A stretch of 64,000 nt of DNA from Halalkalibacter oceani (lineage in GTDB: Bacteria > Bacillota > Bacilli > Bacillales > Bacillaceae_D): the NCBI RefSeq assembly GCF_023715605.1, contig NZ_JAMBOL010000015.1, positions 1 to 64,000 on the forward strand, written 5' to 3'. The translations under genes were made by a program, and so were the position numbers. The stretch's first letter is position 1; every line of letters begins with the position of its first letter. The notes below the pieces were generated by a model. That model had not been told where the DNA came from, made no database searches, and saw only the letters and a list, made by a program, of their open reading frames with translations. Below are positions 3,653 to 25,262 of this stretch, in pieces.

Positions 3653-3716
3653 AAAAGAACTTTCATTGGAATTAAAATTAATTCTATTCTTTATCAAATC
3701 AAAGGAGGAAACTGAT

Positions 3717-6085: not shown

Positions 6086-6137
6086 AAGGAGTGATACATA
6101 TTAGTCATAACTAGTATGTATCACTCCTTATTTTTTA
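6086..6137 (+). terminator. Terminator between two gene remnants
   Basis: A perfect 15-base stem (6086..6100 with 6115..6129) with a 14-base loop, followed by ATTTTTT. It lies directly after the stop at 6077..6079. Confidence 0.8.
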
Positions 6138-6171
6138 TGACTTTTTTTGATTTAGGTCTTGATAAGATTAG

Positions 6172-7649: not shown

Positions 7650-7768
7650 AGTCGTCACCTCATTGTTTTGTTTTTATAAAGATTTGTACGCTGCGATACT
7701 TAAAGGAAAGGGGATTTAACAATACAATCATCGAAACCTTGCTGATAATTTGGAGTTTAACTACCTTA

Positions 7769-9457: not shown

Positions 9458-9487
9458 ACCTTCGGGTTGGATTAGGGGGATTTTCCT

Positions 9488-12445
9488 GTGTATCTAAGAG
9501 CAAGAGAACTACTTACACCTGATCAAAGAAAGGATTTTTTGTTAATCCCGTCTACTTTAAGTAATTGGGAATTAGCGTATTACTATACCCTTACACAAGA
9601 TGATATTGAGGTAATAAGACGTAGAAGAAGAGATCATAATCGATTGGGATTCGCTATTCAAATTTGTCTTTTTCGTTACCCTGGTTGGTCTCTTTCAGAT
9701 ATCAAGAATGTTCCTGATAAGGTGATAAACTATGTTGCTAATCAGTTACAAGTAGATGCAAGTGAATTTAAGCTATATTCTGAACGAGAGCAAACGAAAC
9801 ATGAACATATGGAGGAAATACGAAAGTATTATGGTTTTTCTAATTTTTCAGCACAGTCATATCGGATTATTTCACAGGCATTACTCCCCCATGCAATTGA
9901 AAATTCAAATGCACTGTTCCTAATAAGGATGACTTTAGAAGAAATGCGAAAGCGAAAAATCATTCTGCCTGCTATGACAACGATTGAAAGATTAGTATGG
10001 GAAACAAGGCGAAGGGCAGAGGAGAAAGTATATAATTCACTCTATAAACCGTTATCTCCATGGCAAAAACAACAATTGGAGAAATTAATTGATACCCCTT
10101 CCGATAAATCCAAAACTAAGCTTGGATGGCTAAGGGAAATACCAGGTCAGTCATCACCAGATGCTTTTTTAAAAGTAATTGAGAGATTAGAATATGTTCG
10201 TTTATTAAATCTTTCAACAGAGTCCGAAAATATTCACTCGAATAGGCTGCTTCAGCTTGCTAGGCTAGGCGCCCGATATGAACCTCATTCCTTTCGGAGG
10301 TTTAATGAGAATAAAAGGTACGCTATTCTTGTAGCTCACCTTTTAACTCTTAGTCAAGATCTAATCGATCAAGCTATCGAAATTCATGACCGCCAAATTA
10401 TGATCTTACAGTCAAAGGGTAGAAAAGCACAAGAAGAACTGCAAAAGCAAAATGGAAAATCTATCAATGAAAAAGTACTGCACTTTGCGGATATTGGTGA
10501 AGCTTTAGTAAAAGCACGAAATGAAGAGCTAGATCCATTTGAAGTATTAGAGAAAATAATGCCTTGGGAAAGGATTGTTGATTCTATAGAAGAAGCAAAA
10601 CGTTTAGCTCGTCCTATGGACTACGATTACTTAGATTTGTTGGTCACCCGGTTTAGTTACCTTAGAAAGTATACACCGGTACTTCTCAGTAAATTGGAGT
10701 TCCGTACGACTCAGGCTTCTGAGCCTTTATTGCGCGCTCTAAATGTCTTGCGTGAAATTAACAATAATAAGAAACGCCATATTCCCGAAGGCGCGCCATT
10801 GGATTTTGTGCCAAAGAGATGGCAGAAACATGTCTATGATGAAGATGGAAATATTAATCGAAAGTATTATGAATTAGCAGCATTAACCGAATTAAAAAAC
10901 CATATCCGTTCAGGAGATATATGGGTTGCTGGAAGCAGGTTACATAAGGATTTTGAAGAATACTTAGTCACTAAAGATAATTGGGATGAAACTAAGAATA
11001 CAGGCAATAGATTAGCTGTTGGTATGTCAGCTCAAGAATATATAATTGAGAGAAATACTGCTTTAAATGAAAGATTAGATTATATATTGGAAAACATAGA
11101 TTCTCTTGAGGGAATAAGTATTGACAAGTCAAGGATACGACTTGACCGTTTAGAGAAAGATACACCGGAAGATGCCAAATCTCTTAGCCAAACTTTATAT
11201 AACATGTTACCACGGGTAAAACTTACTGATTTATTGATTGAAGTTTCAAATTGGACAGGATTCGATGAACACCTTGCTCATGCGTCTAGTAATCGTCCAC
11301 CTAAGGGAGAAGAAAAGTCTATTGTAATGGCTACGATTATGGCTATGGGAACCAATATCGGTCTTACCAAAATGGCTGAAGCAACACCAGGAATCACCTA
11401 TCATCAGTTAGCTAATGCAGCCCAATGGCGATTACATGAGGATTCTTTGAGTAAAGCTCAAGCTACTTTAGTAAATTTTCAACATCATCTTTCTTTATCA
11501 AAATATTGGGGAAATGGGAGTACCTCATCTTCGGATGGCATGCGTGTACAAGTTGGCGTCTCTTCTCTTCATGCTGATGCTAACCCACACTACGGAACAG
11601 GGAAAGGAACTACTATCTATAGATTCACCAGCGATCAATTTTCTTCTTTTTATACAAAGGTTATTAACACAAACGCTAGGGATGCTGTACATGTCATCGA
11701 TGGATTGCTTCATCATGAATCAGAATTATCCATTGAAGAGCATTATACGGATACGGCTGGTTACACCGATCAGGTTTTTGGATTAAGCCATATATTAGGT
11801 TTTCGCTTTGCTCCTAGAATGCGAGATCTATCTGACTCTAAACTTTATGTCATGGATAAATCCAATGTTTATTCAAAGATTGACAGCATTCTACGAGGAA
11901 AAATCAACATTAAGATTATTCAAGATAACTATGATGATGTCTTACGATTAGCACATTCCATACGGGAAGGTAGAGTATCGGCTTCACTTATTTTAGGAAA
12001 GTTAGGATCTTATTCTCGCCAAAATAAAATGGCAACAGCATTGCGAGAGATGGGTAGAATTGAAAAGACAATCTTTATATTAGACTATATTTCTAATGAA
12101 ACATTACGCCGGCGTATCCAAAGAGGATTAAATAAGGGTGAAGCTATGAATGGATTGGCAAGAGCCTTATTTTTTGGTAAACGTGGAGAGTTACGGGAAA
12201 GAGGATTGCAAGATCAACTTCAACGAGCTAGTGCCTTAAATATTCTTATAAATGCTACTACAGTTTGGAATACCGTTTATCTCACAGAGGCTACAAAGAT
12301 ATTAAAAGAAAAGGGCTTATTAAAAGAGGAGTTATTACCTCACATTTCCCCATTGGGTTGGGAACATATAAATTTACTTGGAGAATATTTATTTGATTCG
12401 AAAAAGGTACCCAAATCAAATGAATTACGACCTTTAAAGATATAA
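9488..12445 (+). CDS. tnpA: Tn3-family transposase TnpA
   Basis: A 985-residue DDE transposase, full length for the family. The N-terminal part carries the DUF4158-type DNA-binding region; the catalytic core has Asp in SSDGMRVQV, Asp in HYTDTAGY and Glu in the KRGELRERG region near the C-terminus, plus the usual HADANPHYG. The start is GTG 9488 behind GGGGGA. No frameshift is seen, so it should be active on suitable ends. Confidence 0.95.
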   Translation: MYLRARELLTPDQRKDFLLIPSTLSNWELAYYYTLTQDDIEVIRRRRRDHNRLGFAIQICLFRYPGWSLSDIKNVPDKVINYVANQLQVDASEFKLYSEREQTKHEHMEEIRKYYGFSNFSAQSYRIISQALLPHAIENSNALFLIRMTLEEMRKRKIILPAMTTIERLVWETRRRAEEKVYNSLYKPLSPWQKQQLEKLIDTPSDKSKTKLGWLREIPGQSSPDAFLKVIERLEYVRLLNLSTESENIHSNRLLQLARLGARYEPHSFRRFNENKRYAILVAHLLTLSQDLIDQAIEIHDRQIMILQSKGRKAQEELQKQNGKSINEKVLHFADIGEALVKARNEELDPFEVLEKIMPWERIVDSIEEAKRLARPMDYDYLDLLVTRFSYLRKYTPVLLSKLEFRTTQASEPLLRALNVLREINNNKKRHIPEGAPLDFVPKRWQKHVYDEDGNINRKYYELAALTELKNHIRSGDIWVAGSRLHKDFEEYLVTKDNWDETKNTGNRLAVGMSAQEYIIERNTALNERLDYILENIDSLEGISIDKSRIRLDRLEKDTPEDAKSLSQTLYNMLPRVKLTDLLIEVSNWTGFDEHLAHASSNRPPKGEEKSIVMATIMAMGTNIGLTKMAEATPGITYHQLANAAQWRLHEDSLSKAQATLVNFQHHLSLSKYWGNGSTSSSDGMRVQVGVSSLHADANPHYGTGKGTTIYRFTSDQFSSFYTKVINTNARDAVHVIDGLLHHESELSIEEHYTDTAGYTDQVFGLSHILGFRFAPRMRDLSDSKLYVMDKSNVYSKIDSILRGKINIKIIQDNYDDVLRLAHSIREGRVSASLILGKLGSYSRQNKMATALREMGRIEKTIFILDYISNETLRRRIQRGLNKGEAMNGLARALFFGKRGELRERGLQDQLQRASALNILINATTVWNTVYLTEATKILKEKGLLKEELLPHISPLGWEHINLLGEYLFDSKKVPKSNELRPLKI

Positions 12446-12452
12446 AAATTAT

Positions 12453-12484
12453 GCTGATATCTCCTTAGCGTTGGTGATATCAGC
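12453..12484 (+). terminator. Hairpin after tnpA
   Basis: A 12-base stem with one mismatch (12453..12464 with 12473..12484) right after the stop. The following T content is modest, so termination may be weak. Confidence 0.5.
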
Positions 12485-12504
12485 TTATGTTTTCCATTTA
12501 TTGT

Positions 12505-12543
12505 CTTAACGTGGGTTTTATGACAAAATGTTGGTTATACCCC
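12505..12543 (-). repeat. Right terminal inverted repeat of the Tn3-family element
   Basis: Read inward it begins GGGGTATAACC and ends ACGTTAAG, matching the Tn3-family end consensus (GGGG at the tip, ACGTTAAG inside) at the standard 38 to 39 bases. Confidence 0.88.
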
Positions 12544-12634
12544 ATCAAGAGAAATCTATCGACTCATTCACGCGTTGTTTCTACTTACTCAAAACACTGG
12601 AATGAGTGTAGAGGAGGCAAAGGATAATGCCTAG
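12544..12634 (+). pseudogene. 3' end of a gene cut by the transposon
   Basis: Immediately outside the terminal repeat an open frame with no start runs to TAG 12632..12634, encoding about 29 residues ending GMSVEEAKDNA. It overlaps the next start by a few bases, as in an operon. The transposon seems to have inserted in this gene. The protein family is not recognised. Confidence 0.5.
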
Positions 12635-12773
12635 ACAATACCAAATAATCAAATTTAAATCACAGCGGCAAATTAACGAAGAGCGAAAAGAAAAGACACA
12701 GCGAGAATATGAGGCACTAAAGAATAAAATAAAGCTGATTCGTAACGAAAAACAATCAAATCGTTTAGCCTAA
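12627..12773 (+). CDS. Small basic protein, 48 residues
   Basis: ATG 12627 has GAGGAGG nine bases before it and overlaps the end of the truncated gene. The product is rich in Lys, Arg, Glu and Gln (starting MPRQYQIIKFKSQRQ) and predicted to be one long charged helix. It is unknown, possibly a nucleic-acid-binding plasmid protein. A strong hairpin follows at the stop. Confidence 0.55.
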   Translation: MPRQYQIIKFKSQRQINEERKEKTQREYEALKNKIKLIRNEKQSNRLA

Positions 12774-12959
12774 AAAAAGTAGCTGATACTGGTTTTTATC
12801 CAGTATCCCGCTACTTTTTTTTCCTTTGTTTTTAAATTTTTCTTGCAGCCTTCTATGCTCTTCTTTTATTCGAGTTGTTTTTTCATCTATTCTTTTTTGT
12901 CTATTGCCAAGCTTAATCTTTTTGGGATAAGAATTGAAATTAATTAAATCACCCATCAT
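12765..12959 (-). CDS. Small basic protein, about 64 residues
   Basis: The start (ATGATG near 12959) is preceded by AAGGTGGTGG. The first 50 residues are very basic and helical (RIKEEHRRLQEKFKNKGKK). The last 15 codons run through the terminator hairpin, which is odd and lowers confidence. Function unknown. Confidence 0.4.
   Translation of the reverse strand: MMGDLINFNSYPKKIKLGNRQKRIDEKTTRIKEEHRRLQEKFKNKGKKSSGILDKNQYQLLFLG
12772..12824. terminator. Bidirectional terminator
   Basis: Outer AGTAGC/GCTACT and inner ATACTGG/CCAGTAT pairs form a long interrupted stem between A and T runs. It ends the + strand small gene and can act on the converging minus-strand one. Confidence 0.7.
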
Positions 12960-13017
12960 TCACCACCACCTTAATAGCGATTATGGGCAAAAACAATGAC
13001 CACTATTCACAAAATAA

Positions 13018-13128
13018 TTGACTTTTCTATTCTTGGCTGTTATTCTACCAGTAATCTAATATGCTAGCGGGAAAACCCGACAAATCAACTGATAAACAAT
13101 ATAAATCTGTTGATTTGTCGGGTTTTTT
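13018..13128 (+). ncRNA. Leader RNA 1 with premature terminator
   Basis: Promoter TTGACT (13018..13023), 17-base spacer, TATTCT (13041..13046). About 20 bases into the transcript a small CGGG-AAAA-CCCG hairpin appears, and its CCCG is also part of the left arm of an 18-base terminator stem (13072..13089 with 13109..13126) ending in T6. The lipoprotein gene begins 27 bases later. The two foldings exclude each other, as in an attenuator. Similar elements lie at 16009..16135 and 20701..20849. Confidence 0.55.
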
Positions 13129-13154
13129 GCTTATAAAGGAGGTGATAGCTAGAA

Positions 13155-13634
13155 ATGAAACTGATGGTTCCCACTCTTTTGGCCATTTTCTTCTTTATTC
13201 CTGGATGTACAGAACAGGAAGTACAACCATCTCCATATGAAGACTATATAGTCACGTTTATGAATGTAGTAGATGACTCAAATAAATTACTAAATCAATA
13301 CCATAAACACCTTGATAGTCTTTATACACAAAAAATTGATCAAACAGGTTTTGGTAAGCAGGTAAGTGAATTGGTGCCGCAATCAAATGAACTTGTTCAA
13401 AGCTTAGATAATCAAATTTATAATCTTAGTCCTCCAATTTATAATTTTCATCGCGAACTAATTGGTCTAATCAATAGACAGCACCTTTTACTTGTTAACA
13501 GTGTTGATGCCGCTTTTCAAGATAAGGAAGCCAACAAAGAACTTTTTAGTAATGAATTTCAAGAAATAAAGCAGGAGCATACCGTTTTGATTGAACAACT
13601 TAGGATGATTACAACAGGCACTCTGGAAGAATAA
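13155..13634 (+). CDS. Putative small lipoprotein
   Basis: A 159-residue exported protein. An N-terminal hydrophobic segment ends in the lipobox IPGC (Cys18), so Lgt and signal peptidase II should process it. The mature part is predicted all-helical with no Cys. AAAGGAGGTG lies before ATG 13155. It follows a premature terminator, so expression probably depends on read-through. I do not recognise the family; its position beside replication genes suggests a plasmid backbone role such as surface exclusion, which is only a guess. Confidence 0.75.
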   Translation: MKLMVPTLLAIFFFIPGCTEQEVQPSPYEDYIVTFMNVVDDSNKLLNQYHKHLDSLYTQKIDQTGFGKQVSELVPQSNELVQSLDNQIYNLSPPIYNFHRELIGLINRQHLLLVNSVDAAFQDKEANKELFSNEFQEIKQEHTVLIEQLRMITTGTLEE

Positions 13635-13654
13635 CGTAGGAGGTGGGATTCAGA

Positions 13655-14500
13655 TTGAGGATCGCCCGCACTGTATCAGGGGACATTTGCTACTCAGAAG
13701 AATATCAAGTCGAAAAGCATGGTAGTCGTTTATTCTGTATTGATTCAGATTGTCAAGCGCCGGTTATCTTTGTCAAACGATCGAAAACATCCGTTGCTCA
13801 TTTTAAAACAACTGGAAAAGAAGGTTCTAAGCACAAGTTAGGGTGCGGTTTCTATCAGTCTCTAGATATGTTCGGTACGGTTCTAAAAGTCTCTGAATAT
13901 CAGGAATCACTTTTAAAACAGGGTGGATTACCTGAGAGTGTGATTCGATTAAGTTTAAAAGGTATTGACCCAGATTATGTACCTCGTCAAGTTGAAAGAA
14001 ACACGGAGACAACCAAAGAGATTGATGAACAAAATAAACCGAAAGTCAAGGATAAAAAGGATACTCCCCAATCATTAAGCTCAGTGAAATCAGTAGCTAG
14101 GTTGCTCCAAGAAACGGAGCCTGATCTATTAGCTACGATATTGTTTAACATTGGGGGTGGACGGAAGGAGCCATTGTCATCGATTATACTCGATCAAGAA
14201 AAGGCGCATAAATTTCTATGGGGTGAACAAGCACTTAAAATAAATTACTTTGTCTACGGAACTATCGAATCCATAACAAGAAGAGATAAGGTAATTTACC
14301 TCAATTTCACAACGATTAATGATGTCACATTTAGTCTTGTTGTTTTTGACAAGTATTTCAAGGAATTCACTTATTCCGATTTGGAACTTCAACACCATAA
14401 AGTCCTAGTTTATGGTAAACTGCGGAAAAATGAATTTAATAATCAGATGAAAACTGAAATGGTTATAAAATCAAATTCTTATATTGAGCGACTTAATTAA
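13655..14500 (+). CDS. Zinc-finger plus OB-fold-like protein
   Basis: About 281 residues. The N-terminal 70 residues show a Cys/His pattern (FCIDSDC, then AHF, then HKLGC) like the zinc-binding module of CoiA-type competence proteins. A Lys/Glu-rich linker follows, then a C-terminal beta-rich region (from about residue 185, starting NYFVYGTIESI) that reads like a nucleic-acid-binding OB fold. TTG 13655 is preferred because AGGAGGTGG ends nine bases before it; GTG 13643 lies inside that site. It may bind or process single-stranded DNA during transfer or replication. No catalytic motif is visible. Confidence 0.65.
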   Translation: MRIARTVSGDICYSEEYQVEKHGSRLFCIDSDCQAPVIFVKRSKTSVAHFKTTGKEGSKHKLGCGFYQSLDMFGTVLKVSEYQESLLKQGGLPESVIRLSLKGIDPDYVPRQVERNTETTKEIDEQNKPKVKDKKDTPQSLSSVKSVARLLQETEPDLLATILFNIGGGRKEPLSSIILDQEKAHKFLWGEQALKINYFVYGTIESITRRDKVIYLNFTTINDVTFSLVVFDKYFKEFTYSDLELQHHKVLVYGKLRKNEFNNQMKTEMVIKSNSYIERLN

Positions 14501-14631
14501 AGAATCATCGTAATCTAAATAATTAAAAGTCAATTCAGTTGAGTTGAATAAGAAGAACACCTGCAGGATACCTGGATCTACTTATATTAAGCAAAACCAT
14601 TATTAATATTGTAGAGTAGTAAAATTATAGA

Positions 14632-14669
14632 AAAAGAGACGTTTCTCATATGCAACGTCTCTTTTCTTA
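14632..14669 (+). terminator. Terminator after the OB-fold gene
   Basis: A 12-base stem AAAAGAGACGTT (14632..14643) with AACGTCTCTTTT (14654..14665), then TT. The stretch 14501..14631 shows nothing else. Confidence 0.85.
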
Positions 14670-14718
14670 TGATTTTACAATGTGAAATCTTAGGTTAAAT
14701 GCGGAAGACCTAACGACT

Positions 14719-14826
14719 TTATTTTATGCTAATGATTGTCGTTTTCTTTCCTTTTTTCTTTTTAATTTGAATAGCAAGCTTTAATTTCTTCACATCAGCT
14801 GAAGAAAGTGACTGTGCCTTTTCCAC
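14719..14826 (-). CDS. 35-residue basic peptide
   Basis: GTG 14826 (minus strand) has AGGAGG at ideal spacing, which decides the start; an open frame extends further upstream without a ribosome site. The peptide starts MEKAQSLSSADVKK and ends in a Lys-rich tail. It is the only minus-strand gene between 12.96 and 22 kb, which marks it as possibly regulatory. Function unknown. Confidence 0.5.
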   Translation of the reverse strand: MEKAQSLSSADVKKLKLAIQIKKKKGKKTTIISIK

Positions 14827-14997
14827 ACATTTCCCTCCTAGTTTGAAAAAACTTTCGTTCTTATCTTTTTGTCCATTTTTATTATCATTTATACGTCTTT
14901 TCCCCTGCCCTCTTGCATATATTTGACCATACAACCAAATGGCCCTATGACCCTAGGTTAAGGGAGGGGAAGAGTCTAAAAAAAGAGGGGGGATAAG

Positions 14998-15414
14998 ATG
15001 GATAAGCTAAATCCAATATTTAATGGAACAAAGGTTTATCGTCCAAAATTTATTCCTGAAAATCCAAACGTTCGGAATTCCACTAAACAGCGGAGGATAA
15101 GGAGCGATAAAAAGACAGACATTAAAGTGCCCCTGTCCCATGATTTAAGGAAAATTCTCAATCGGCAAGCTAGAGAGAAAAATATGTATGCCACACATTA
15201 TGCAAGTTCTCTTGTCGAAGAAGGATTAAGGTGCTTTGTAACTTTTCCTCATGAAACTTACATTAGTTCAGAAAAATGTGTCCATGTGAAGTTAGCTGAC
15301 TATTATATGGATAAAATATTCATAATGAAAAACGAAATGGATGTGAGCTACAAAGAAACCGCATATCGTATTTTAGTGTTCATGCTACTTCAAAAGGAGA
15401 TCGAACATGGATAG
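14998..15414 (+). CDS. Ribbon-helix-helix-like plasmid protein
   Basis: 138 residues. After a basic N-terminus (KQRRIRSDKK) comes a short strand followed by two helices (TDIKVPLSHDLRKIL then a helix with YATHYASSLVEEG), the outline of a ribbon-helix-helix DNA-binding domain. The C-terminal half is helical. Ribosome site GAGGGGGG before ATG 14998. It overlaps the next gene by eight bases. Likely a plasmid regulator or partition-type protein; neither a ParA nor a relaxase is in view. Confidence 0.6.
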   Translation: MDKLNPIFNGTKVYRPKFIPENPNVRNSTKQRRIRSDKKTDIKVPLSHDLRKILNRQAREKNMYATHYASSLVEEGLRCFVTFPHETYISSEKCVHVKLADYYMDKIFIMKNEMDVSYKETAYRILVFMLLQKEIEHG

Positions 15415-15991
15415 ACAATCTTATAGTGAAATCGATCTTATCGGACAAGAATTAAAGGAGTACACAAGAGAACGGCCTTCATTCTTAGGATTTTGTATCT
15501 CCTTACTGGAAAAAAAACGGATGGGCAATCTAAAGATACGCGTGCCAAAGAAAACATTAAAAAGAGCAATTGCATTTTGTAAGGATGTCGAACGAATTAT
15601 TGAAGAGCCTTTTCAGCCTGCTATGATCATTGATATCTTACTTGATGAATTTTTACTTGAATTGGCCAAAAAGAATGATGTATTCAATATCTTTCGTAAC
15701 CTTCGATCTCGAAACTATAAGCCGATTGAGTTTGTCCGATATAATGCATTAAATAGTGAGCTTTTACAAGGTTCACTCTCCTATAATGAGATCACATTAG
15801 AATTAAAAAGAGACGATATATTGAGAATCGAATGGATGCTCGATGATTTAGAAGAACAATATGCTAACCATGGTTTCACGGTAGAAACGGTGATTGAAAT
15901 TTTATTTTGTGATTTTATTGAAGAATATCGTAAAGGTGGTATGCCCAAAGCTGTCGATCGTATTATCCGAATTTATTTAGCGGATGAATGA
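15407..15991 (+). CDS. Double ribbon-helix-helix-like protein
   Basis: 194 residues with two similar halves: NLKIRVPKKTLKRAI plus helix, and ITLELKRDDILRIEW plus helix, each a strand then two helices ending in an acidic ILLDEFLLEL or ILFCDFIEEY stretch. This suggests two fused ribbon-helix-helix units, a natural partner for the preceding gene with which it overlaps. The pair could form a plasmid copy-control, partition or conjugation repressor. No named family recognised. Confidence 0.6.
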   Translation: MDRQSYSEIDLIGQELKEYTRERPSFLGFCISLLEKKRMGNLKIRVPKKTLKRAIAFCKDVERIIEEPFQPAMIIDILLDEFLLELAKKNDVFNIFRNLRSRNYKPIEFVRYNALNSELLQGSLSYNEITLELKRDDILRIEWMLDDLEEQYANHGFTVETVIEILFCDFIEEYRKGGMPKAVDRIIRIYLADE

Positions 15992-16008
15992 GTATTTTAA
16001 GAAAAACT

Positions 16009-16135
16009 GTACAAATTTAAGATTTGTTGGTTTATAATACAGGAGTACTGGCTTACAAAATAATTTCGAATATACGATTAACGGGAAAGCCCGCTCGATG
16101 TACATGAGATTACTCATGACAGAGCGGGTTTTTTT
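16009..16135 (+). ncRNA. Leader RNA 2 with premature terminator
   Basis: A weak -35 (TGTACA, 16009..16014) and TATAAT (16033..16038). At 16080..16093 lies AACGGGAAAGCCCG, whose CCCG also starts the terminator arm CCCGCTC (16090..16096) pairing with GAGCGGG (16122..16128) before T7. An inner ACATGAG/CTCATG-type hairpin sits in the loop. The diguanylate cyclase gene starts 19 bases after the T run. Same plan as 13018..13128. Confidence 0.55.
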
Positions 16136-16153
16136 GTTTTAGGAGGATGAAAT

Positions 16154-17209
16154 GTGAGTTATTTATGGGCGTTAGGGGCAGCAATTTGTACTCTTTTATT
16201 ATTTATGACACTACATCTTTATATCAAATGGAAAAGTCCAACACATCTGTGTTCTTTAATTTCAGTTCTTCTGTCTACGATCATTTATGTCTATGGTATG
16301 GTTTCAATGAATTCAACAATGACGGTCCTGTCAATCCCATTCCTTTTTGGGGGAGTATGTTCGTTATATATTCAGGAACGAGACCGTATATTTTGGTCTA
16401 TCTTTGTAACCCCATCTCTAGTGGGATTTGCCATTATCGTCATGGAATATGTAACCGGGTTTTCAACTAACTTTCTAGCTTATCTTTCACTTATGCTTTT
16501 TTCAATTTTAATCTCTATTCATTATAAAAAAGTTCTTAATCAGTACTTATTCTTTACCTTTGCCGTAACATTCCTGGGAATATCCTGCATACTGGGTTTA
16601 TTAGTTATCGTATATCCATTTCAATTGTTTTTTCTATTACACACTGCCTTCTTAATATGTACGATTGTTTGCATGTTCTTTTTTTATTTTGACCGGATCA
16701 TTGCAAAAATGATACTTGCACAATACGGTTCATTACTTGACCCTTTAACTGGATTATATAACCGACGTTTTTTTGTTAATGAAGTTACCTCGAAAAACAA
16801 TGGTACATCTGCAGTCATTTTTTCAGATATTGATGACTTTAAAAAACTAAATGAAACACAGGGACATGAAAAAGGCGACGAGATTCTTATCACAGTGGCA
16901 AAAATCTTTAAAGAAGTAATTGGTCAACAAGGATGTGTTGCCCGTTATGGAGGAGAGGAAATTGTGGTTTTCTTACCAAATGGGGAGGCAATCGTTTCAC
17001 AGTTAGCTGAACAGATCCGTCAACGAGTTAGTGATGAAACAGTGGCAACTCTTTCAATTGGTTATTCAACGTATGGTACAAGTGAAATAAAGAACAATAT
17101 TATTGATTACTCAGATCAAGCAATGTACATGGCTAAAACAACTGGAAAAAATAAAGTCGTGGGTTATGGATCAGACAGAATTGAGACTTTAATGGAGGGA
17201 TCATCATGA
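16154..17209 (+). CDS. Membrane diguanylate cyclase (GGDEF protein)
   Basis: 351 residues: about six transmembrane segments (residues 1-185), then a GGDEF domain (about 195-340) starting DPLTGLYNRRFF. The signature is RYGGEEIVVF, i.e. GGEEI, with both metal-binding acids (FSDIDDFK and GGEE) present, so c-di-GMP synthesis is likely. No RxxD inhibitory site is obvious. GTG 16154 follows AGGAGG by seven bases. Its last four bases overlap the next gene, linking c-di-GMP with a cell-wall protein. The membrane part is not a recognised sensor. Confidence 0.88.
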   Translation: MSYLWALGAAICTLLLFMTLHLYIKWKSPTHLCSLISVLLSTIIYVYGMVSMNSTMTVLSIPFLFGGVCSLYIQERDRIFWSIFVTPSLVGFAIIVMEYVTGFSTNFLAYLSLMLFSILISIHYKKVLNQYLFFTFAVTFLGISCILGLLVIVYPFQLFFLLHTAFLICTIVCMFFFYFDRIIAKMILAQYGSLLDPLTGLYNRRFFVNEVTSKNNGTSAVIFSDIDDFKKLNETQGHEKGDEILITVAKIFKEVIGQQGCVARYGGEEIVVFLPNGEAIVSQLAEQIRQRVSDETVATLSIGYSTYGTSEIKNNIIDYSDQAMYMAKTTGKNKVVGYGSDRIETLMEGSS

Positions 17210-18420
17210 GAAAAGTTGTGTCAATTCTAGCATGCATGGCTGTTGGAATATCTATTGTAATGATTCTGATTTTTCTCATACCCAGCCAGTCGATCAAACA
17301 TATCGTACTGGATTTTAAGGGGAAGTCCGCGACTATTCAAACAAAAGCAACTGTGATCGAAGAATTGCTAAGTGAGTTAGAAATTGAGATGTCTCCTTCA
17401 ATGACGGTATATCCAGATCAACATACAAAATTAACACATGGCATGTTAATTTCAATCAAACAGCGAGTCCCCGTTACAATCAATTACAATGGTGAAAAGA
17501 TTCTGCTTCAAACGGATCGTAGTACTGTCGAGGAAGTGATCAGAGAAGAATTAGGTATTGTTCCCACACTACATGATTATCTCTATCCTGCTGCTTCTGA
17601 TCCGATTCAGGAAGGATCAAATATAATCTTTCAAACAGCCTTCCAGGTGTCGATTCAACAAAATGGAACTCAGATTAAACGATGGACGACTCCTGGGACG
17701 GTAAGGGACATATTGCAAAAACACAACATTATCGTAGGAGAAGATGAATTTGTCCGCCCTTCTTTAGACACTCGCCTTACAACAGAGAACACGATTGAGA
17801 TTATTGAGTTTTTAAGTGATAAAGAAGTTCAAACGGAATACATTAACTACAGTGTTATTAAACAAGAAAGCGACGATTTGATGGTTGGTCAAGAACAAAT
17901 CATTCAGGAAGGGCAGCAAGGAATAATAGAGAAAACATTTCATGTGATTGAGCAAGACGGGAAAGAAACATCAAGGATATTAGTTTCTGAAGAAGTAACA
18001 AGAGAACCAAGTAATCAATTAATTGCAGTGGGGACGAAAAAGCAAGTAGAACGACAGAATCCATCAATACAAGATCATCTACCATCAATAGATCGAGTAC
18101 CCCCTTTGATAATCGATAGAGAAGGGAAAGAAACGATGCTTGTAACAGCCACTGCATATACTCCTGATTGTTTAGGCTGTACTGGAATTACAAAAATGGG
18201 GATTGACCTTCGGCACCGTCCTAATATTAAGGTAATTGCAGTAGATCCTGAAGTAATTCCATTAGGTGCTACTGTTTATGTAGAAGGATATGGAAAAGCT
18301 GTAGCAAGTGATATTGGATCTGCAATAAAGGGGAAAAAGATTGATTTGTATATGCATACGGAAGAAGAAGCACTTCGTTGGGGGAGAAGACAAGTACAAG
18401 TGACTCTACTTGATTCATAA
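17206..18420 (+). CDS. YabE-like protein with DUF348, G5 and 3D domains
   Basis: 404 residues with an N-terminal membrane anchor or signal segment (about 8-27), three ubiquitin-like DUF348 repeats (for example IVLDFKGKSATIQTKATVI), a G5-like region, and a C-terminal 3D domain with Asp residues in AVDPEVIPLG, ASDIGSAIKG and IDLYMH. This is the architecture of Bacillus YabE and related resuscitation-factor-like hydrolases. Expected to act on peptidoglycan outside the membrane. Overlaps the diguanylate cyclase by four bases, so they are co-translated. On a plasmid it might help remodel the wall during transfer. Confidence 0.85.
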   Translation: MRKVVSILACMAVGISIVMILIFLIPSQSIKHIVLDFKGKSATIQTKATVIEELLSELEIEMSPSMTVYPDQHTKLTHGMLISIKQRVPVTINYNGEKILLQTDRSTVEEVIREELGIVPTLHDYLYPAASDPIQEGSNIIFQTAFQVSIQQNGTQIKRWTTPGTVRDILQKHNIIVGEDEFVRPSLDTRLTTENTIEIIEFLSDKEVQTEYINYSVIKQESDDLMVGQEQIIQEGQQGIIEKTFHVIEQDGKETSRILVSEEVTREPSNQLIAVGTKKQVERQNPSIQDHLPSIDRVPPLIIDREGKETMLVTATAYTPDCLGCTGITKMGIDLRHRPNIKVIAVDPEVIPLGATVYVEGYGKAVASDIGSAIKGKKIDLYMHTEEEALRWGRRQVQVTLLDS

Positions 18421-18571
18421 ATTATTGTTTTAATTAATAATTAAGAGAATGACAACAATGTTTGTTTTACAAATTGATTTAAAGATGTTTTATATTGTTT
18501 AAAGTGATAATCTGTTTTGTTGTTTTCATGCTACCATGATAGTGTCATAGCAGGAGGTTTACCTTTAAAAG

Positions 18572-19353
18572 ATCACTATTAGTGGAGTGAAAGATCACAC
18601 TTTAAGGAGCTAATTATCACGGATACAGGAGTGAGATATCACACAAGAAGGGGTAAAGTATCACAAATTGTGGACTTAACTATCACAGAAAAAGGAGTTT
18701 AAGGATCACACTTAGGGGAGTAACTATCACACATTAGGGAGTAAAGGTCACAGATTGAGGGTATCGGCTACTTATAGATAAGAAAGATCACACTATGAGG
18801 AGTCAATGCCCTATTAAAAGATCACACTTAAGGGAGTTTTATCTAAAACTATCACAGATAAGGGAGCATTTTGTGATTATTATGTCCGATATTCCGTTTT
18901 CTGTCATTTAACTATCACACATTGAGGGGTATAATTTATTCATTATTAGATTTTATGGCTATGCGAGATAGTTTAGAACAATTAATTTTAATTATAAACT
19001 CCTATATGTGTGATAGTTTGATCTTCATCCTCCCCAAAATGTGATAGTTAATGCTGGTAGCAATCCTCTAAGTGTGATACTTCATGATCTTACTCCCAAA
19101 AGTGTGACACTTTGAAGCTTTAATAGGACAGCTGGCAGCGCCTAACAAGGCTATCATGACCGCGACTCCATGTAAATCCTGTGCTTCTACTAAAGTTCAG
19201 CGTTTGATCTCGGGGAAAGGATCGAGGTTTGACTTGATACTCCCTTAAGTGTGATAGTTACTACCACACTAGTTTGTGTGTAATTGTTAAAGAAAATGCC
19301 AAAAACCTAATAAAGGCTGCTAGATTAATGATTCCCTTATCGGTCACACATAG
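18572..19353. repeat. Replication origin with about 19 iterons
   Basis: The repeat unit is ATCACACNNNAGGGGAGTAA-like. On the + strand copies begin at 18572, 18594, 18616, 18638, 18660, 18682, 18705, 18726 and 18747 (steps of 21-23 bases), then 18787, 18821, 18851, 18914 and about 19333. Five inverted copies (GTGTGATA core) lie near 19008, 19039, 19072, 19102 and 19249. The AT-rich stretch between the two sets (about 18930..19000) is the likely opening region. The array runs up to the rep gene, the normal layout for Rep_3 initiators. The inverted copies may act in autoregulation. Confidence 0.9.
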
Positions 19354-19427
19354 GGGAGTAGATTTTTGTTATATCTTGAACTATAGTGAAGAAAATACCG
19401 TTTTTTAGAGGTCGAGGTGAGTGAGAA

Positions 19428-20612
19428 ATGAAAGCAGAACAACTCTCATTATTTGAGTCAAAAATTTCACCAGAATACTTAGTTACTCAATCAAACTCAT
19501 TGATTGAAGCTCCCCAGAACCTTACGCTGCAAGAAAAAAGAATTATCTTAACCTTAGCCTCATTAGTGCAACCAGAAGATGATAACTTTCGTGTTCACCG
19601 GATTAAAGTCAAAGATCTAGCCGATATCATTGGGATTAAGGAAAAAAACTTTTATAGCAAAGTTGAGAGTGTGGTTGAAAAGTTACAGAACAAAACAATC
19701 ACGATTGAAACAGAACGATCGAAACTAAATATGCACTGGCTTTCATCTTCTGAATACTTTAAAGGTCAAGGGTATGTAGAATTAGAGTTTTCAGAGAAGC
19801 TTCGCCCTTTTTTACTGGAACTGAAGCAAAATTATACACCGTTTAAGTTACGTAATGTTTTACAGTTAAGAAGTGAATATTACATAAGGATATATGAACT
19901 ATTAAAACAATATGAGAAATTGAAAAAGAGAGCGTTTTCCATTTCGGAACTCAAATTTCATTTAAATATTCCTCCTGATAAATATGAAAAATATGCACAT
20001 TTAAAGAGTCGGATAATCTTAAAAGCACAATCTGAACTAACAGAAAATACCGACTTGACGTTTGATTTTGAAGAGCGTAAAGAGGGACGGAAAGTTGTTG
20101 GGATCATTTTCTACATAAAAAAGAACCAGAAGCTTCTTAAAGAAGTGATTGGAAACGAAAAATTAGATTCGAATAGCAGCAACTTGTTAATTCGCTTTGG
20201 TGTCAGGCCTGATAAAGCTCGTGAAATTGTTAAAGAATATAGTGAAGAACAAATCAACCAGAATATTAATTATATATTAGAGACAAAAAATCATTTGGAA
20301 ATTGATAACATAAGTGGTTACGTGATTGCTGCTATTGAAAATAATTATGTTGAGAAAGGTAAACTTAAGTCTACCGATTTTAAGAGTGTGGATAGATTTT
20401 CTGTAGGACAAGTTCAGCAATGGCTTAAGGGGATTTATCGTCATAGCAGAGAAAGTGTTCCGAGCTTCCTGGTAGAAGAAAAGGTGATTGATTACATTGT
20501 CAAGGAAGGTTTTCAAATTGAAGAAGCTTTAGAATTTTGGAATGAACACGGTACGAATCTTAATCAATACTTACGCGACCTGATTAAAGAGAATAGATTA
20601 AAAAAGAAATAG
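19428..20612 (+). CDS. repB: Rep_3-family plasmid replication initiator
   Basis: 394 residues with the two winged-helix units of the Rep_3 (RepB) family: the first from about 15 to 130 (NLTLQEKRIILTLASLVQ, then VKDLADIIGI), the second from about 140 to 235 (LRSEYYIRIYELLKQYEK, then SISELKFHLNI). A C-terminal extension of about 150 residues (QIEEALEFWNEHG) follows. GAGGTGAG precedes ATG 19428. It should bind the upstream iterons to open the origin. Intact. Confidence 0.93.
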   Translation: MKAEQLSLFESKISPEYLVTQSNSLIEAPQNLTLQEKRIILTLASLVQPEDDNFRVHRIKVKDLADIIGIKEKNFYSKVESVVEKLQNKTITIETERSKLNMHWLSSSEYFKGQGYVELEFSEKLRPFLLELKQNYTPFKLRNVLQLRSEYYIRIYELLKQYEKLKKRAFSISELKFHLNIPPDKYEKYAHLKSRIILKAQSELTENTDLTFDFEERKEGRKVVGIIFYIKKNQKLLKEVIGNEKLDSNSSNLLIRFGVRPDKAREIVKEYSEEQINQNINYILETKNHLEIDNISGYVIAAIENNYVEKGKLKSTDFKSVDRFSVGQVQQWLKGIYRHSRESVPSFLVEEKVIDYIVKEGFQIEEALEFWNEHGTNLNQYLRDLIKENRLKKK

Positions 20613-20700
20613 GATCAATCAAACAAGGCAGCATATTTGGTGATAGTTCTCTTATGTAGTTGCCACCTTCACAATTTATAATATTATTTTGCATTTAAGA

Positions 20701-20849
20701 TTGACCTTTAAAATTGGGTATACTATAATTTCTCTATAAGCTGAGATTTGTTGAGTGAACTGGATTGTATTTAATTGAATTAAGATAACGGGACACCCCG
20801 GTTGAAATTGAGTGTTTAAGCTCATTTTTAACTTTGGGTGTCTTTTTTT
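20701..20849 (+). ncRNA. Leader RNA 3 with premature terminator
   Basis: Promoter TTGACC (20701..20706), 17-base spacer, TATAAT (20724..20729). AACGGGACACCCCG (20787..20800) overlaps terminator arm GACACCC (20792..20798), which pairs with GGGTGTC (20836..20842) before T7. The SAF-domain gene follows. Same arrangement as the two other backbone leaders. Confidence 0.5.
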
Positions 20850-20919
20850 GTGAATTTCAAAAAATAGGACCATCAGAATTCTTAAATGATATGAGAGGTC
20901 TTATAAGAAAGGAAAAAAA

Positions 20920-21408
20920 ATGAACAATAAACTCAAAATAATTGCTGCATTATTTGTATCTTCAATTGCAATCGTGTTTGTGATTGTGTGGGATCTATAC
21001 TTAAAAGATCATATTGATTCAGAGAGGGTTGTCATCGTGAAAGCAAATTCAGATATTCAAAGGGGCCAAACCTTAACAAAAGATATGTTCGAAATTGAAA
21101 CTCGGCCAAAAAGTGCGTTGGTAGAGGGGGTTGTTAAAGAGTCAGAGCTCAATCATATTCTTGGAAAAGACGCAGCTGAAAGGCTCATTAAAAATGCGCA
21201 ATTATCGACTGAGCAAGTTGATTTTGATAGGATTACTCCTAATAAAGAAGAGGGTGAAGCGATAAGACCGATTCCGAATGAATGGATTTTTGCTAAACCT
21301 GGTTCACTTAGAGCAAAAGATCAAATATCCATCTATGCCTTTACACCATCCAGTGCTGAAGAAGTGGTATATTTAAAGGTCATCAAAACGATGAAAAGCT
21401 ATCTATGA
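20920..21408 (+). CDS. SAF-domain membrane protein, probably truncated
   Basis: 162 residues: one N-terminal membrane segment (about 7-25) and a SAF domain (VVIVKANSDIQRGQTLTKDMF) as in CpaB/FlgA-like proteins. The relatives I know of are longer, and the C-terminal TMKSYL runs straight into the next frame with an ATGA overlap, so the 3' part may have been lost when the chrA fragment was joined. Ribosome site AGAAAGGA before ATG 20920. Role unknown. Confidence 0.6.
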   Translation: MNNKLKIIAALFVSSIAIVFVIVWDLYLKDHIDSERVVIVKANSDIQRGQTLTKDMFEIETRPKSALVEGVVKESELNHILGKDAAERLIKNAQLSTEQVDFDRITPNKEEGEAIRPIPNEWIFAKPGSLRAKDQISIYAFTPSSAEEVVYLKVIKTMKSYL

Positions 21409-22022
21409 CATTTCCGATTTCAAAACGTTTTGGGGGCATTTGCTTAACGTTATTTTTCGGACTATTGGTGGGGCTCCCTATTTTAAGTCATTTTAGTTCA
21501 ATGACTTGGATAAATATATTCGACAGCTTTTATCGTGCAGGATCCTTAGTGTTCGGAGGAGGACATGTGGTACTTCCTCTTTTAGAACGTGAATTTGTCC
21601 CTACAGGATTCATTAGTGAAGAATCGTTTCTTGCCGGTTATGGTGCAGCCCAAGCTGTTCCAGGTCCTCTTTTTACGTTTGCTTCCTATATAGGAGCTGA
21701 TATTGGTGGATGGGCAGGAGGACTAATGGCAACCGTTGCGATCTTCCTGCCAGCATTTCTTCTTATATTAGGAACGTTACCATTCTGGTATTCACTGAGA
21801 GAAAACAGTAAGATTAAAGGTGCATTTATGGGAGTTAATGCAGCCGTTGTAGGAATACTCATCTCTGCATTTTACCAACCCATATGGACGAGTGCTATTC
21901 TTACCCCTATGGACTTTACTTTAGCTGCACTGTTGTTCTTTATGCTCGTTTATTTAAAACTTCCACCTTGGATCATTGTTCTTTCCGGTGCATTAGGAGG
22001 ATCGCTTTTAGCTATCTTTTAA
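21405..22022 (+). CDS. chrA: C-terminal half of chromate transporter ChrA
   Basis: 205 residues matching the second half of a long ChrA: a leading hydrophobic segment that normally joins the two halves, then SLVFGGGHVVLPLLE, AAQAVPGPLFTFASYIGA and four more hydrophobic segments. The first half (its own FGGG/PGP copy) is missing. Short one-domain CHR proteins exist but normally occur as pairs and do not start with the joining segment. I infer a 5'-truncated gene whose function is doubtful. The start is the ATG that overlaps the previous stop. Confidence 0.65.
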   Translation: MTFPISKRFGGICLTLFFGLLVGLPILSHFSSMTWINIFDSFYRAGSLVFGGGHVVLPLLEREFVPTGFISEESFLAGYGAAQAVPGPLFTFASYIGADIGGWAGGLMATVAIFLPAFLLILGTLPFWYSLRENSKIKGAFMGVNAAVVGILISAFYQPIWTSAILTPMDFTLAALLFFMLVYLKLPPWIIVLSGALGGSLLAIF

Positions 22023-22071
22023 GAGGACAGAAGTTGAAAACTAATTGATTTTAGTACAAATCGCAAAAATA

Positions 22072-22121
22072 AAACCGCATGGAATCAAGGTTTTATTTTT
22101 GATTTCATGCGGTTTATTCAT
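22072..22121. terminator. Bidirectional terminator between chrA and arsC
   Basis: A 17-base stem with one imperfect pair (22072..22088 with 22099..22115), A-rich before and T-rich after. It serves the two converging transcripts. Confidence 0.8.
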
Positions 22122-22176
22122 TTTTACAGGGTTATGTCGTAGCCCCCTACATTCAATGACCCTAAACGGCTTCTTA

Positions 22177-22593
22177 TCAAGTTGTTTTCGCAAATTGTTG
22201 AATGCGCTGGCCGATTTCATCACGTACTCGTTGGAATACTGCCCACTTTTCTTCGTCTGATCCTTCAGCTTTCGCTGGATCATCAAAACCCCAATGTTCA
22301 CGGCGAATATGCGGCGGTGTCATCGGACAACGATCCGCCGCATCACCGCAAAGGGTCACAATCATATCAACGTCATTCAATAAGTCCGTATCAATAACAT
22401 CCGATGTCTGGTTAGAAATATCAATATTGACCTCGTTCATGGCTTTTATTGCATTTGCGTTTAAACCATGAGCTTCGACACCTGCACTACACACATTCCA
22501 ATCCTTACCTAAATAATGCTTGGCCCATCCTTCGGCCATTTGGCTACGGCATGAGTTTCCTGTACAAAGAAAATAGATCGTTTTTTTAGACAT
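22177..22593 (-). CDS. arsC: Thioredoxin-dependent arsenate reductase
   Basis: A 138-residue low-molecular-weight-phosphatase-type arsenate reductase. The phosphate loop CTGNSCRS holds Cys10 and Arg16; the relay cysteines are Cys82 and Cys89 in LCGDAADRC, as in staphylococcal pI258 ArsC. It reduces As(V) to As(III), which the adjacent ArsB exports. Last gene of the minus-strand arsR-arsI-arsB-arsC operon; 21 bases after arsB. Confidence 0.95.
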
Positions 22594-22614
22594 GATGGGT
22601 TTTTCTCCTTTTCT

Positions 22615-23913
22615 TTAACTAATCATCATTAACCAGAGGTAGAGACCGAGTAAGGTGATAAATAAGACGGGTAACGTAATGACAATGCCTGTCTTAAAGT
22701 ACGTCCACCAAGAAATCTTGACTCCTTTTTGAGTAAGAACGTGTAGCCACAATAGTGTTGCTAACGAACCAATTGGGGTAATTTTTGGTCCAAGGTCAGA
22801 ACCGACGACATTTGCATAAATCATTGCTTCTTTCATCAATCCCGTTGCTGCGGTTGCATCAATTGCTATGGCATTGATCATGACCGTTGGCATATTGTTC
22901 ATGATCGAAGACAGAATAGCTGCTAAAAATCCCATGCCCATGGTTGCTGCAAAAACACCTTGCTCAGCAACATGTTCAAGCCCTGAAGCTAGAAGATCCG
23001 TTAAACCTACATTTTGAAGACCAAACACAACGACATACATCCCAACCGAGAAAAAGACAATGTTCCATGGCGCACCTTTTAACACCGATCGTGTTGCGAC
23101 AGCAGGACTTTTGCTTGCAATCGCTAAGAAGGTAAGGGCAATGATTCCGGCAACAATGGATACAGGAATATGTAAGAACTCGCTAACGAGGTAGCCAACA
23201 AGTAAAATAGCTAAAACGATCCATGAGATCCTAAACATTCTTTCATCTTTAATGGCTGTAACAGGCTTCTTCAGTTTTTCATAGTCGTATCGTTTTGGAA
23301 TGCTCTTTCTAAAGTAGAGGTACAAAACAAGAATACTGGCCACTAATGAAAAGAAGTTTGGAACAATCATCCGTGTGGCATATTCAATAAATCCAATGCC
23401 GAAGAAGTCCGCCGAAACGATGTTGACTAAGTTACTCACTATCAACGGTAGCGAGGTAGAATCGGCAATAAATCCACTCGCAATAATAAATGGGAACACC
23501 ATCGTTTCGTTAAATTTCAACGAGCGAACCATGGCTAAAACGATTGGCGTTAAAATTAAAGCTGCACCGTCATTGGCGAAAAATGCAGCGACGATTGAAC
23601 CTAAAATACAGACGTATACAAACATGAGCACAGCATTTCCTTTGGCCGCACGAGTCATATGGAGGGCCGACCATTCGAAAAAGCCTATTTCATCCAAAAT
23701 TAAAGAAATTATAATAACGGCAATAAACGTTAAAGTAGCATTCCAAACAATGCCTGTAACTTCAATGACATCGCCAAAAGAAACAACACCAAGAAGTAAT
23801 GCAATGATGGCACCACCACAAGCAGACCAACCAATATCAAGGTTTCTAGGCTGCCAGATAACTAAAACGAGCGTAATGATAAATATAGCAGATGCTAAAA
23901 AGACTGAAATCAA
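22615..23913 (-). CDS. arsB: ArsB arsenite efflux protein
   Basis: 432 residues with 11-12 hydrophobic segments; the family stretch [22 protein letters not shown] and [17 protein letters not shown] are present. It exports arsenite/antimonite driven by the proton gradient, alone or with an ArsA ATPase; no arsA is nearby. Spaced about 115 bases after arsI. Confidence 0.93.
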
Positions 23914-24029
23914 CGTATGAGTTCTCCTTTACGATTAACCAATGTTTTTTTCTCTAAGAGTATGGTATATGCCATCTTAAAGGCAGCCAGTGGCCGCCTT
24001 CATTATTACATTTAAAGTTGCATTGAATA

Positions 24030-24434
24030 TTAACCTATGCAACACTCATCATTTTCTTCTACATCTTCTACATCATCCTTTGTATAAAAATATTCCCACT
24101 CGTTCCCATCAGGATCCGTTACCCAAAACTTATCTTGCACAGCGTAGCAACATGTTGTATCCATTTCTTCTCGGGTAAAAAAACCAACTTTTTCAAGCCT
24201 TTCTTTATGTTTGATCACTTCATCTCTACTTTCCAATTGTACGCCTAAATGGTTAATCTGATTTCCGTCAACTTGTTCTGTCGGTGTTAGTGTTAAGTTC
24301 AAATTTGGCTCACTCGTTAGGAACTTAACATAATCGTGTTTTTCCTTCGCAGGCGTAACTCCTAGCATGTTTTCATAAAAGGTTTTACTCTCCTCTAAGT
24401 CTCTTACGTTTAAACCAATGTGCACGCTCGTCAT
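24030..24434 (-). CDS. arsI: ArsI-type C-As lyase (VOC family)
   Basis: A 134-residue vicinal-oxygen-chelate protein. Metal ligand candidates are His5, His62 and Glu114; the vicinal Cys95-Cys96 pair in TTCCYA followed by QDKFWVTDPDGNEWE is the signature of ArsI, which demethylates organoarsenicals such as methylarsenite. CadI-type annotation is the common alternative name. The C-terminus adds an acidic tail with a second CysCys. It lies between arsR and arsB, consistent with arsenic detoxification. Confidence 0.85.
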   Translation of the reverse strand: MTSVHIGLNVRDLEESKTFYENMLGVTPAKEKHDYVKFLTSEPNLNLTLTPTEQVDGNQINHLGVQLESRDEVIKHKERLEKVGFFTREEMDTTCCYAVQDKFWVTDPDGNEWEYFYTKDDVEDVEENDECCIG

Positions 24435-24451
24435 AAATACCTCTCCTATAT

Positions 24452-24469
24452 AATCAATTTTTTTTGATT
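24452..24469 (-). promoter_or_regulatory. Possible internal ArsR-type operator
   Basis: AATCAA and TTGATT (24452..24457 and 24464..24469) form an inverted repeat between arsR and arsI, similar in half-site to the main ars operator. Could give arsI-arsB-arsC extra regulation. Confidence 0.35.
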
Positions 24470-24488
24470 TATTGCGTTCAAAAAGCTA

Positions 24489-24818
24489 CTAACACTTAGA
24501 GAATCCAGGTTTGAACACACAACATAATTCATCCGAGAGTACCCGATCCATTTCCACTTCGTTAATCTCATAATAACTCCATGTACCTTTAGTTTCTCTC
24601 ACTATAAGGTTAGCATCCATCAGTATTTTTAGATGATATGACAGCTTAGATTGGCTCATATCTAACTCTTCCGTAAGGTGACAGACACAAGTTTTTCCTC
24701 TTCTACTCAACAGATGAAGTAAATGCAATCGTTTTTTATCTGCTAAGGCCTTAAACGTATGCTCATACTTCTCTAAAGTATTAATTGAAAGGTCATCAAC
24801 AGGTGATACTGCATCCAA
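24489..24818 (-). CDS. arsR: ArsR arsenic-sensing repressor
   Basis: About 109 residues, winged helix. The As(III) site CVC lies in KTCVCHLTEEL, next to the recognition helix (SQSKLSYHLKIL); the C-terminus has an extra CC and a final Cys. TTG 24818 is chosen as start because AAAGGGG precedes it by eight bases; TTG 24839 is in frame but has no ribosome site. First gene of the ars operon. Confidence 0.88.
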   Translation of the reverse strand: MDAVSPVDDLSINTLEKYEHTFKALADKKRLHLLHLLSRRGKTCVCHLTEELDMSQSKLSYHLKILMDANLIVRETKGTWSYYEINEVEMDRVLSDELCCVFKPGFSKC

Positions 24819-24861
24819 ATCATTCACCCCTTTAATCAAATATTATTGATTAACTAAACAG

Positions 24862-24900
24862 TATCACAAGCATCTATAGTAAATCAAATTAATTTGATTT
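24862..24900 (-). promoter_or_regulatory. ars promoter and operator
   Basis: A perfect 20-base palindrome at 24881..24900 (AAATCAAATT and its complement) covers the -35 TTGATT of a minus-strand promoter whose -10 (GATACT or ATACTG) lies 16-17 bases on. The spacing between half-sites differs from the CadC boxes, so the two repressors should be distinct. Confidence 0.75.
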
Positions 24901-25262
24901 ACTTTTTCTTTCTTTCTTCTTCAACTATCGTATACATTAGCGAGAAATTCTTATTCAACATAATGGACCAATTCCAAAATGGAGTGAATGACATTTTTTA
25001 ACTTTATTGGGAGGGGGTACTTTCTTTTCTTTTTCTTTATGAGCTAAGTAAGCAAGTTTTTGCTTCGGCAGCACAAAACGTCTGCCTGTTCTAGCCTTAG
25101 CGCTATGTCATTTTGCTTTTTCTTTCGCCTATAGAGCTCATCATACACCGGACTGTAGTGAAGCTGACGGTTTCCAGCCAGAATACTTTTTACTACAACT
25201 TAAACACAACCAATTACTAGCATCTTCTCCATGCAACTTAAAAACTTCTAGATAATTTTCAA
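24901..25262. other. Intergenic stretch with a degraded minus-strand coding trace
   Basis: Between the ars operator and the next promoter, the minus strand reads as two partial open frames of about 45 and 40 codons joined by a shift near 25110, containing LHYSPVYDELYRRKKK and TGRRFVLPKQKLAYLAHKE. They have no start or ribosome site and look like a decayed gene of unknown family. Confidence 0.3.

Follow-up and report, generated by a model that had tools for sequence, protein, structure and literature searches.

A plasmid-type diguanylate cyclase gene overlapping a YabE-type wall protein gene beside a Rep_3 origin in Halalkalibacter oceani

Background

The YabE/SpsB proteins of Bacillales share the domain order DUF348-G5-3D and three aspartates. 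According to the accessible text of PMC4499186, YabE has five DUF348 domains and the 3D domain of YuiC is a lytic transglycosylase. For LytE-dependent growth in Mg2+ or Ca2+, B. subtilis has the support of yabE together with two similar genes, ydjM and yocH (accessible text of PMC10653849). Cyclases on conjugative elements are also already known from SXT/R391, Gram-negative integrative conjugative elements with variable cargo in a hotspot (accessible text of PMC2791158). The association of cyclases with Tad clusters on Bacillales plasmids is without description in the open-access literature searched by titles and abstract starts. The accessible parts of PMC9673590 have no occurrence of c-di-GMP or Tad, and those of PMC3756968 none of GGDEF or diguanylate.

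The window, that is the whole stretch of DNA analysed (64,000 nucleotides), comprises positions 1-64000 of a contig of 78,812 bases (C31; NZ_JAMBOL010000015.1) of Halalkalibacter oceani. Its likeness to SXT/R391 lies in the carriage of cyclase genes by mobile elements. The cyclases of Tad-type plasmids (pBpOF4-01, pAZOPL1, pTHECO01, p-YT9A and pSP10-266k) resemble the window cyclase in size and in the layout of a membrane half followed by GGDEF, and several have the same shortened loop and lie on the same side of a tree branch. However, these cyclases lie downstream of SAF-TadA-SLH/stalk-DUF5704 genes, whereas the window cyclase precedes a 3D gene and a Rep_3 gene.

Results and discussion

The features of the region are as follows, with positions of the window.
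13155..13634, + strand: open reading frame of 159 aa, without a Pfam family; 34% over 123 aa to a stretch of pBpOF4-01
13643..14500, + strand: open reading frame of 285 aa, with relatives mainly on Bacillales plasmids
14998..15991, + strand: overlapping gene pair, 138 + 194 aa, without a Pfam family; recurrent on Bacillaceae plasmids
16081..16138 (about), + strand: terminator-like hairpin with U-run, just 5' of the GGDEF ribosome-binding site
16154..17209, + strand: membrane diguanylate cyclase, motif GGEEI
17206..18420, + strand: YabE/SpsB-type wall protein, with N-terminal hydrophobic helix, two DUF348, G5 and 3D (Pfam)
18592..19257, unstranded: iteron array with direct and inverted copies, presumed origin
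19428..20612, + strand: Rep_3 replication initiator
20920..21408, + strand: truncated SAF-domain (CpaB-like) gene, 162 aa

The GGDEF gene and its leader

The GGDEF reading frame (16154-17209) has a GTG start, preceded by AGGAGG at 16141-16146, and encodes 351 aa. The Pfam GGDEF domain covers residues 194-334 (E 7.7e-31; 107.5 bits against a cut-off of 23.8), and a simple hydropathy scan places six to eight hydrophobic segments N-terminal of it, so that the membrane GGDEF protein proposed in the first-pass annotation stands. The residues critical for cyclase activity are DxD, N, D and GG[DE]E. The metal and substrate residues are present in the alignment (DIDDFKKLN, HEKGD, GGEEI), and the protein is probably active as a c-di-GMP synthase. 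The motif GGEEI, with I at the fifth place, is shared by the pBpOF4-01 protein, the P. polymyxa protein and one other, L, M or F standing there elsewhere; since it recurs in plasmid relatives, it is not a sign of decay. The motif of the I-site is RxxD, and no RxxD stands at that place of the window cyclase in the alignment.

Upstream, the stretch 16038-16170 folds into one terminator-like stem with a U-run (z -5.71; equal stability in none of 200 shuffles), which a simple terminator scan missed because the loop is longer than the scan allows. This hairpin had been taken for an attenuator-like leader. It is real but plain: in the search for a competing antiterminator pairing upstream, the longest complement to either arm was 6 bases, and no Rfam family reached its cut-off for the leader (Thr_leader at E 0.6 and Trp_leader at E 0.62 lay far below their gathering scores). 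The attenuator or riboswitch reading was therefore rejected. The hairpin is consistent with termination of the gene pair before it (14998-15991), which has matches in 20 plasmid records, both genes matching in loci L012, L136, L137 and L138. A promoter scan found no promoter-like site between the hairpin and the GGDEF gene, and the 25 such sites in the region are fewer than in shuffles (31.7).

The wall protein gene

The product of the 3D gene is 404 aa long and contains DUF348 (1.8e-17), G5 (4.2e-19) and 3D (6.5e-22), with aspartate motifs AVDPE, ASDIG and KIDLY. Its domain order and three aspartates are those of YabE/SpsB proteins and bear out the earlier naming as a YabE-like 3D-domain protein, although two stretches of DUF348 were found, as against the five domains of YabE. 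The 3D domain aligns with YuiC (PDB 4wlk) at E 2.7e-11. The YabE-like copy of the host itself (contig C38) is 36% identical to the window protein. The chromosomal yabE neighbourhood of metG, rnmV and rsmA was seen at two loci (L007, L011) and is absent at the window gene.

The motif KMGIDL was found in the window and pBpOF4-01 proteins only, among the 37 rows listed, and the two proteins pair in two trees (96 in a quick one, 94/95 in a careful one), both on long branches. A sister relationship of the two is hinted at by motif and trees, but it is unsafe, as long branches carry the risk of a false join.

The origin region and the replicon

The iteron array starts about 170 bases after the end of the 3D gene and is followed by the Rep_3 gene. 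Iteron matches with up to 3 mismatches number 15, against 1.78 expected, and 15 was reached in none of 100 shuffles. The initiator (Rep3_N 2e-38, Rep3_C 1.9e-17) is closest to that of pBpOF4-02 (69.5%), and three Paenibacillaceae Rep_3 relatives follow at 47-50%. The placing of the gene pair beside a Rep_3 origin is upheld.

By its content, namely Rep_3, iterons and relatives on plasmids, the replicon fits a plasmid. Of the earlier statement that the pair lies on a plasmid, this part stands, but comparison of the ends of the 78,812-base contig gave no overlap that would show a circle. Further along the contig (68848-70453; L019 4848-6453), three successive stretches match three consecutive genes upstream of the pBpOF4-02 Rep gene (798 nt, SSB and 390 nt) with identities of 43-60%, an argument for a plasmid backbone in common.

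Overlap of the two genes and survey of the pair

The GGDEF and 3D genes overlap exactly by ATGA (17206-17209), confirming the four-base overlap noted before, and GGAGGG lies shortly upstream within the GGDEF gene. As the cyclase gene overlaps the YabE-type gene, one message would probably give both proteins by translational coupling.

The pair was surveyed by tblastn, the queries being the GGDEF domain and the 3D protein of the window. A 3D gene was found near 0/80 GGDEF loci from genome contigs (flanks up to 8 kb, many shorter) and near 0/29 and 0/29 loci from genomes of the same order (flanks of about 1.5 kb), all other than the window locus; one contig is counted in two locus sets (L049 = L211). 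Conversely, GGDEF was found near 0/30 yabE loci, also with flanks of about 1.5 kb. Among 10 plasmid GGDEF loci, pBpOF4-01 alone has both genes, on the same strand and 12 kb apart. In L. irui both are present, about 76 kb apart.

According to the first-pass annotation, conservation of the pair next to Rep_3 genes was the point to check. Neither gene lies within the 8-25 kb fetched around the Rep_3 genes of pBpOF4-02 and the three Paenibacillaceae relatives, an outcome which that annotation had itself named as refuting its idea. The pair is also absent from the four loci carrying the 14998-15991-type gene pair and from 14 stretches (8 genomes) around 13643-type genes. No case was confirmed in viral contigs, and the pair was not found in genome contigs, in 41 genomes, in 397 genomes (at most 5 candidates scored per genome) or in plasmids (best 40 of 4217 and best 40 of 67 records). 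A conserved cyclase-3D module is rejected for the sets examined, the adjacency being seen in one replicon only. It looks like a one-off so far.

Relatives of the cyclase

The best Bacillales plasmid matches of the window cyclase, among the best 40 of 4217 records, are large plasmids. In a phmmer comparison, nine plasmid cyclases, chosen as the best plasmid matches, scored 106-147 bits, and the best of 63 others scored 98.2; most of these 63 carry no label of replicon type. They comprise 29 top GGDEF hits of 61 genomes, 29 best of 397 genomes, 3 from the window genome and 2 from genome contigs. Against a plasmid grouping, the L. irui plasmid cyclase scored 82.5 bits, below the best non-plasmid one.

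In a tree of 146 columns, with the loop left out and some of the 16 cyclase plasmids included, the window and nine plasmid cyclases lie on one side of a branch with support of 93/88, short of the 95 mark. The same branch occurs in 90% of 200 bootstrap trees, and the window cyclase is placed inside the group at 83/77. The loop from GGEEx to SIG has 27-31 residues in 7 of the 10 (window plus nine), the window sharing the shortened form with six, and 38-39 residues in P. urinalis, P. lautus and T. composti. It has 28 residues in the L. irui cyclase, which is outside the tree, and at least 32 in all 49 measurable of the 63 other cyclases.

Tad-pilus clusters around the plasmid relatives

Five plasmids (pBpOF4-01, P. 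lautus, P. polymyxa, T. composti and Sporosarcina, the last with extra genes inside) display one order: SAF, small genes, a TadA/CpaF-type ATPase, further genes, an SLH/stalk/copper amine oxidase N-domain protein, DUF5704 and GGDEF. Pilus-like genes precede the cyclase in the five clusters read through. In P. urinalis the DUF5704 end was seen, with TadA about 9 kb away. An HD protein with the HD-GYP motif (HHE..DG.GY) directly follows GGDEF in P. lautus, P. urinalis and T. composti. In P. lautus and T. composti the region upstream encodes a conjugative coupling protein together with replication-relaxation proteins. Upstream in P. polymyxa there is a replication-relaxation protein, and neither kind is annotated in the pBpOF4-01 and Sporosarcina stretches read. 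This setting of the plasmid relatives gives indirect backing to the surface or transfer role suggested in the first-pass annotation; the window plasmid, which lacks those genes, may or may not have kept such a use.

The OF4-type TadA was found in 24 plasmids (E at or below 1e-30) and the P. polymyxa-like cyclase in 17 (E at or below 1e-20), 15 of them Bacillales. With C. solani added, and the Pseudoalteromonas and Rhizobium records left out, there are 16 Bacillales cyclase plasmids. It can be seen that 15 of these 16 also carry the OF4-type TadA, P. rhizovicinus having the cyclase only and nine plasmids the TadA only, counts that are not independent because the records are related and several are near-copies. 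The distances vary: the L. irui cyclase follows DUF5704 only after 21 kb, and that of C. solani is remote from TadA. Not all of the nine adjoin an annotated DUF5704 gene, the three exceptions being C. solani, P. rhizovicinus and Paenibacillus sp. 37.

The DUF5704 proteins, about 1000 aa long (e.g. L242 26574-29648; also L173, L174 and L237-L239), recur beside SLH/stalk proteins in the clusters. No occurrence of the name DUF5704 was found in the open-access literature searched.

Cluster pieces in the window

At 162 aa, the SAF product of the window is shorter than those of relatives (247 and 253 aa), and its similarity to them covers residues 1-142 or 1-147; a chromate-transport reading frame starts at 21405. 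SAF matches were found in 21 plasmid records, including Halobacillus, Niallia, Terribacillus and Cytobacillus. The order in Halobacillus and Terribacillus is relaxation protein, coupling protein, further genes, SAF, ParA, T2SS/T4SS-type ATPase, further genes and M23 peptidase.

Relatives of the gene 13643-14500 occur in 14 plasmid records, at least 12 of them shared with the lists of SAF or OF4-type TadA records, all but one of the SAF records being listed. In the draft contig G106:C22 this gene lies between HD-GYP and SAF genes, with Rep_3 21 kb on, and in the Sporosarcina plasmid it directly follows the GGDEF gene. The Halobacillus, Terribacillus and G106 stretches read gave no GGDEF.

The SAF and 13643 genes of the window resemble clusters of the Halobacillus, Terribacillus and G106 type, and its cyclase resembles the set with DUF5704. 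As the two resemble different cluster types, one simple ancestor is not indicated. The window contig gave no TadA, TadB/C, DUF5704 or coupling protein at E 0.01; on two control plasmids, the OF4-type queries and the P. lautus coupling protein gave strong hits, and the Halobacillus-type queries weak ones or none. The plasmid thus holds pieces resembling two Tad-cluster types, perhaps through loss, recombination or both.

A further contig of the same genome, C63 (16,794 bases), carries ParA-type, prepilin-peptidase-like, SLH, SAF-like, TadA and TadB/C-like genes. As the missing part of the plasmid this cluster is not claimed, its TadA matching the plasmid TadA at only 26.6% (6e-6).

Origin and possible working of the pairing

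The reading preferred here, in which belief and doubt are about equal, is that of an orphaned, probably active c-di-GMP synthase from a pilus- or transfer-type plasmid, joined in this replicon to a wall enzyme. In the relatives, the membrane cyclase would raise c-di-GMP and so switch a surface machine like a Tad/Flp pilus. The window plasmid would descend from such plasmids, or have recombined with them, and, without the pilus genes, would have retained the cyclase, the gene 13643-14500 and the front of the SAF gene. On a membrane cue the cyclase would then make c-di-GMP, and the presumed coupling of translation would raise this signal in step with a local loosening of the wall, or with stimulation of another hydrolase. 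In the present host the signal would act via host effectors, of which one PilZ and one match to a c-di-GMP-I riboswitch were found; the Tad-type cluster of C63 is another candidate.

A chance neighbourhood is possible, though rather unlikely: two separately acquired genes of surface adaptation would have come to lie between plasmid core genes, sharing a message through tight spacing only. The confinement of the pair to this replicon in the sets examined agrees with this, as do the scores of the 3D protein, which are no lower with chromosomal YabE (up to 263 bits) than with plasmid ones (204-229 bits). However, relatives of both genes lie on the pBpOF4-01 and L. irui plasmids, which indicates that the gene pool of these plasmids includes the two.

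Wall care under metal stress, with no link to transfer, appears improbable. The YabE-type protein would aid a wall hydrolase at high divalent cations, as suggested by the B. subtilis growth in Mg2+ or Ca2+ cited above, and the cyclase would aid a sessile, metal-tolerant state, in keeping with the resistance genes for Cd, As, chromate and Cu in the window; but the pair adjoins replication genes, outside any metal operon, and the plasmid relatives of the cyclase accompany Tad genes. Hardly credible is the module first imagined, conserved in the plasmid core for maintenance and set by an attenuator, since the site beside iterons and Rep_3, the gene overlap and the hairpin are outweighed by the absence of the pair beside four related Rep_3 genes and elsewhere in the sets searched, and by a hairpin without competing pairing.

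Beyond the orphaned synthase, the wider association of cyclases with Tad clusters is the more interesting result, compared to the pairing in the window. It is tentatively suggested that large plasmids of Bacillales bring along a c-di-GMP switch of their own (a dedicated membrane cyclase, in some with HD-GYP) controlling a Tad-type pilus for mating-pair adhesion or transfer, and that the window belongs to a cut-down plasmid in which the switch was kept and wired to a wall enzyme. If the association holds, Gram-positive plasmids would use a second messenger of the host to time pilus or mating functions, and plasmid spread in soil and food bacilli would be testable through c-di-GMP. The window itself would imply that a gene for signalling can survive the loss of the machine it worked for and then take on a new partner.

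Other content of the contig

Much of the remaining window consists of resistance genes for the metals named above with Tn3 parts. A DNA search with window 13000-25000 gave a single close record, the ars segment of a Paenibacillus plasmid. Genes for a resolvase and a Tn3-family transposase lie at window 8903-12445 and at 11064-14589 of the contig part L019; these sets lie near both ends of the known contig part, the second being annotated by reading frame and likeness alone. Signal peptidase II and prolipoprotein diacylglyceryl transferase genes (window 7203-7658 and 32060-32905) stand among the metal-resistance genes. At 6116-6793, a reading frame of 225 aa matches only the C-terminal part of a pyridine nucleotide-disulphide oxidoreductase and is fragment-like; its full-length kin lies at window 3666-5135.
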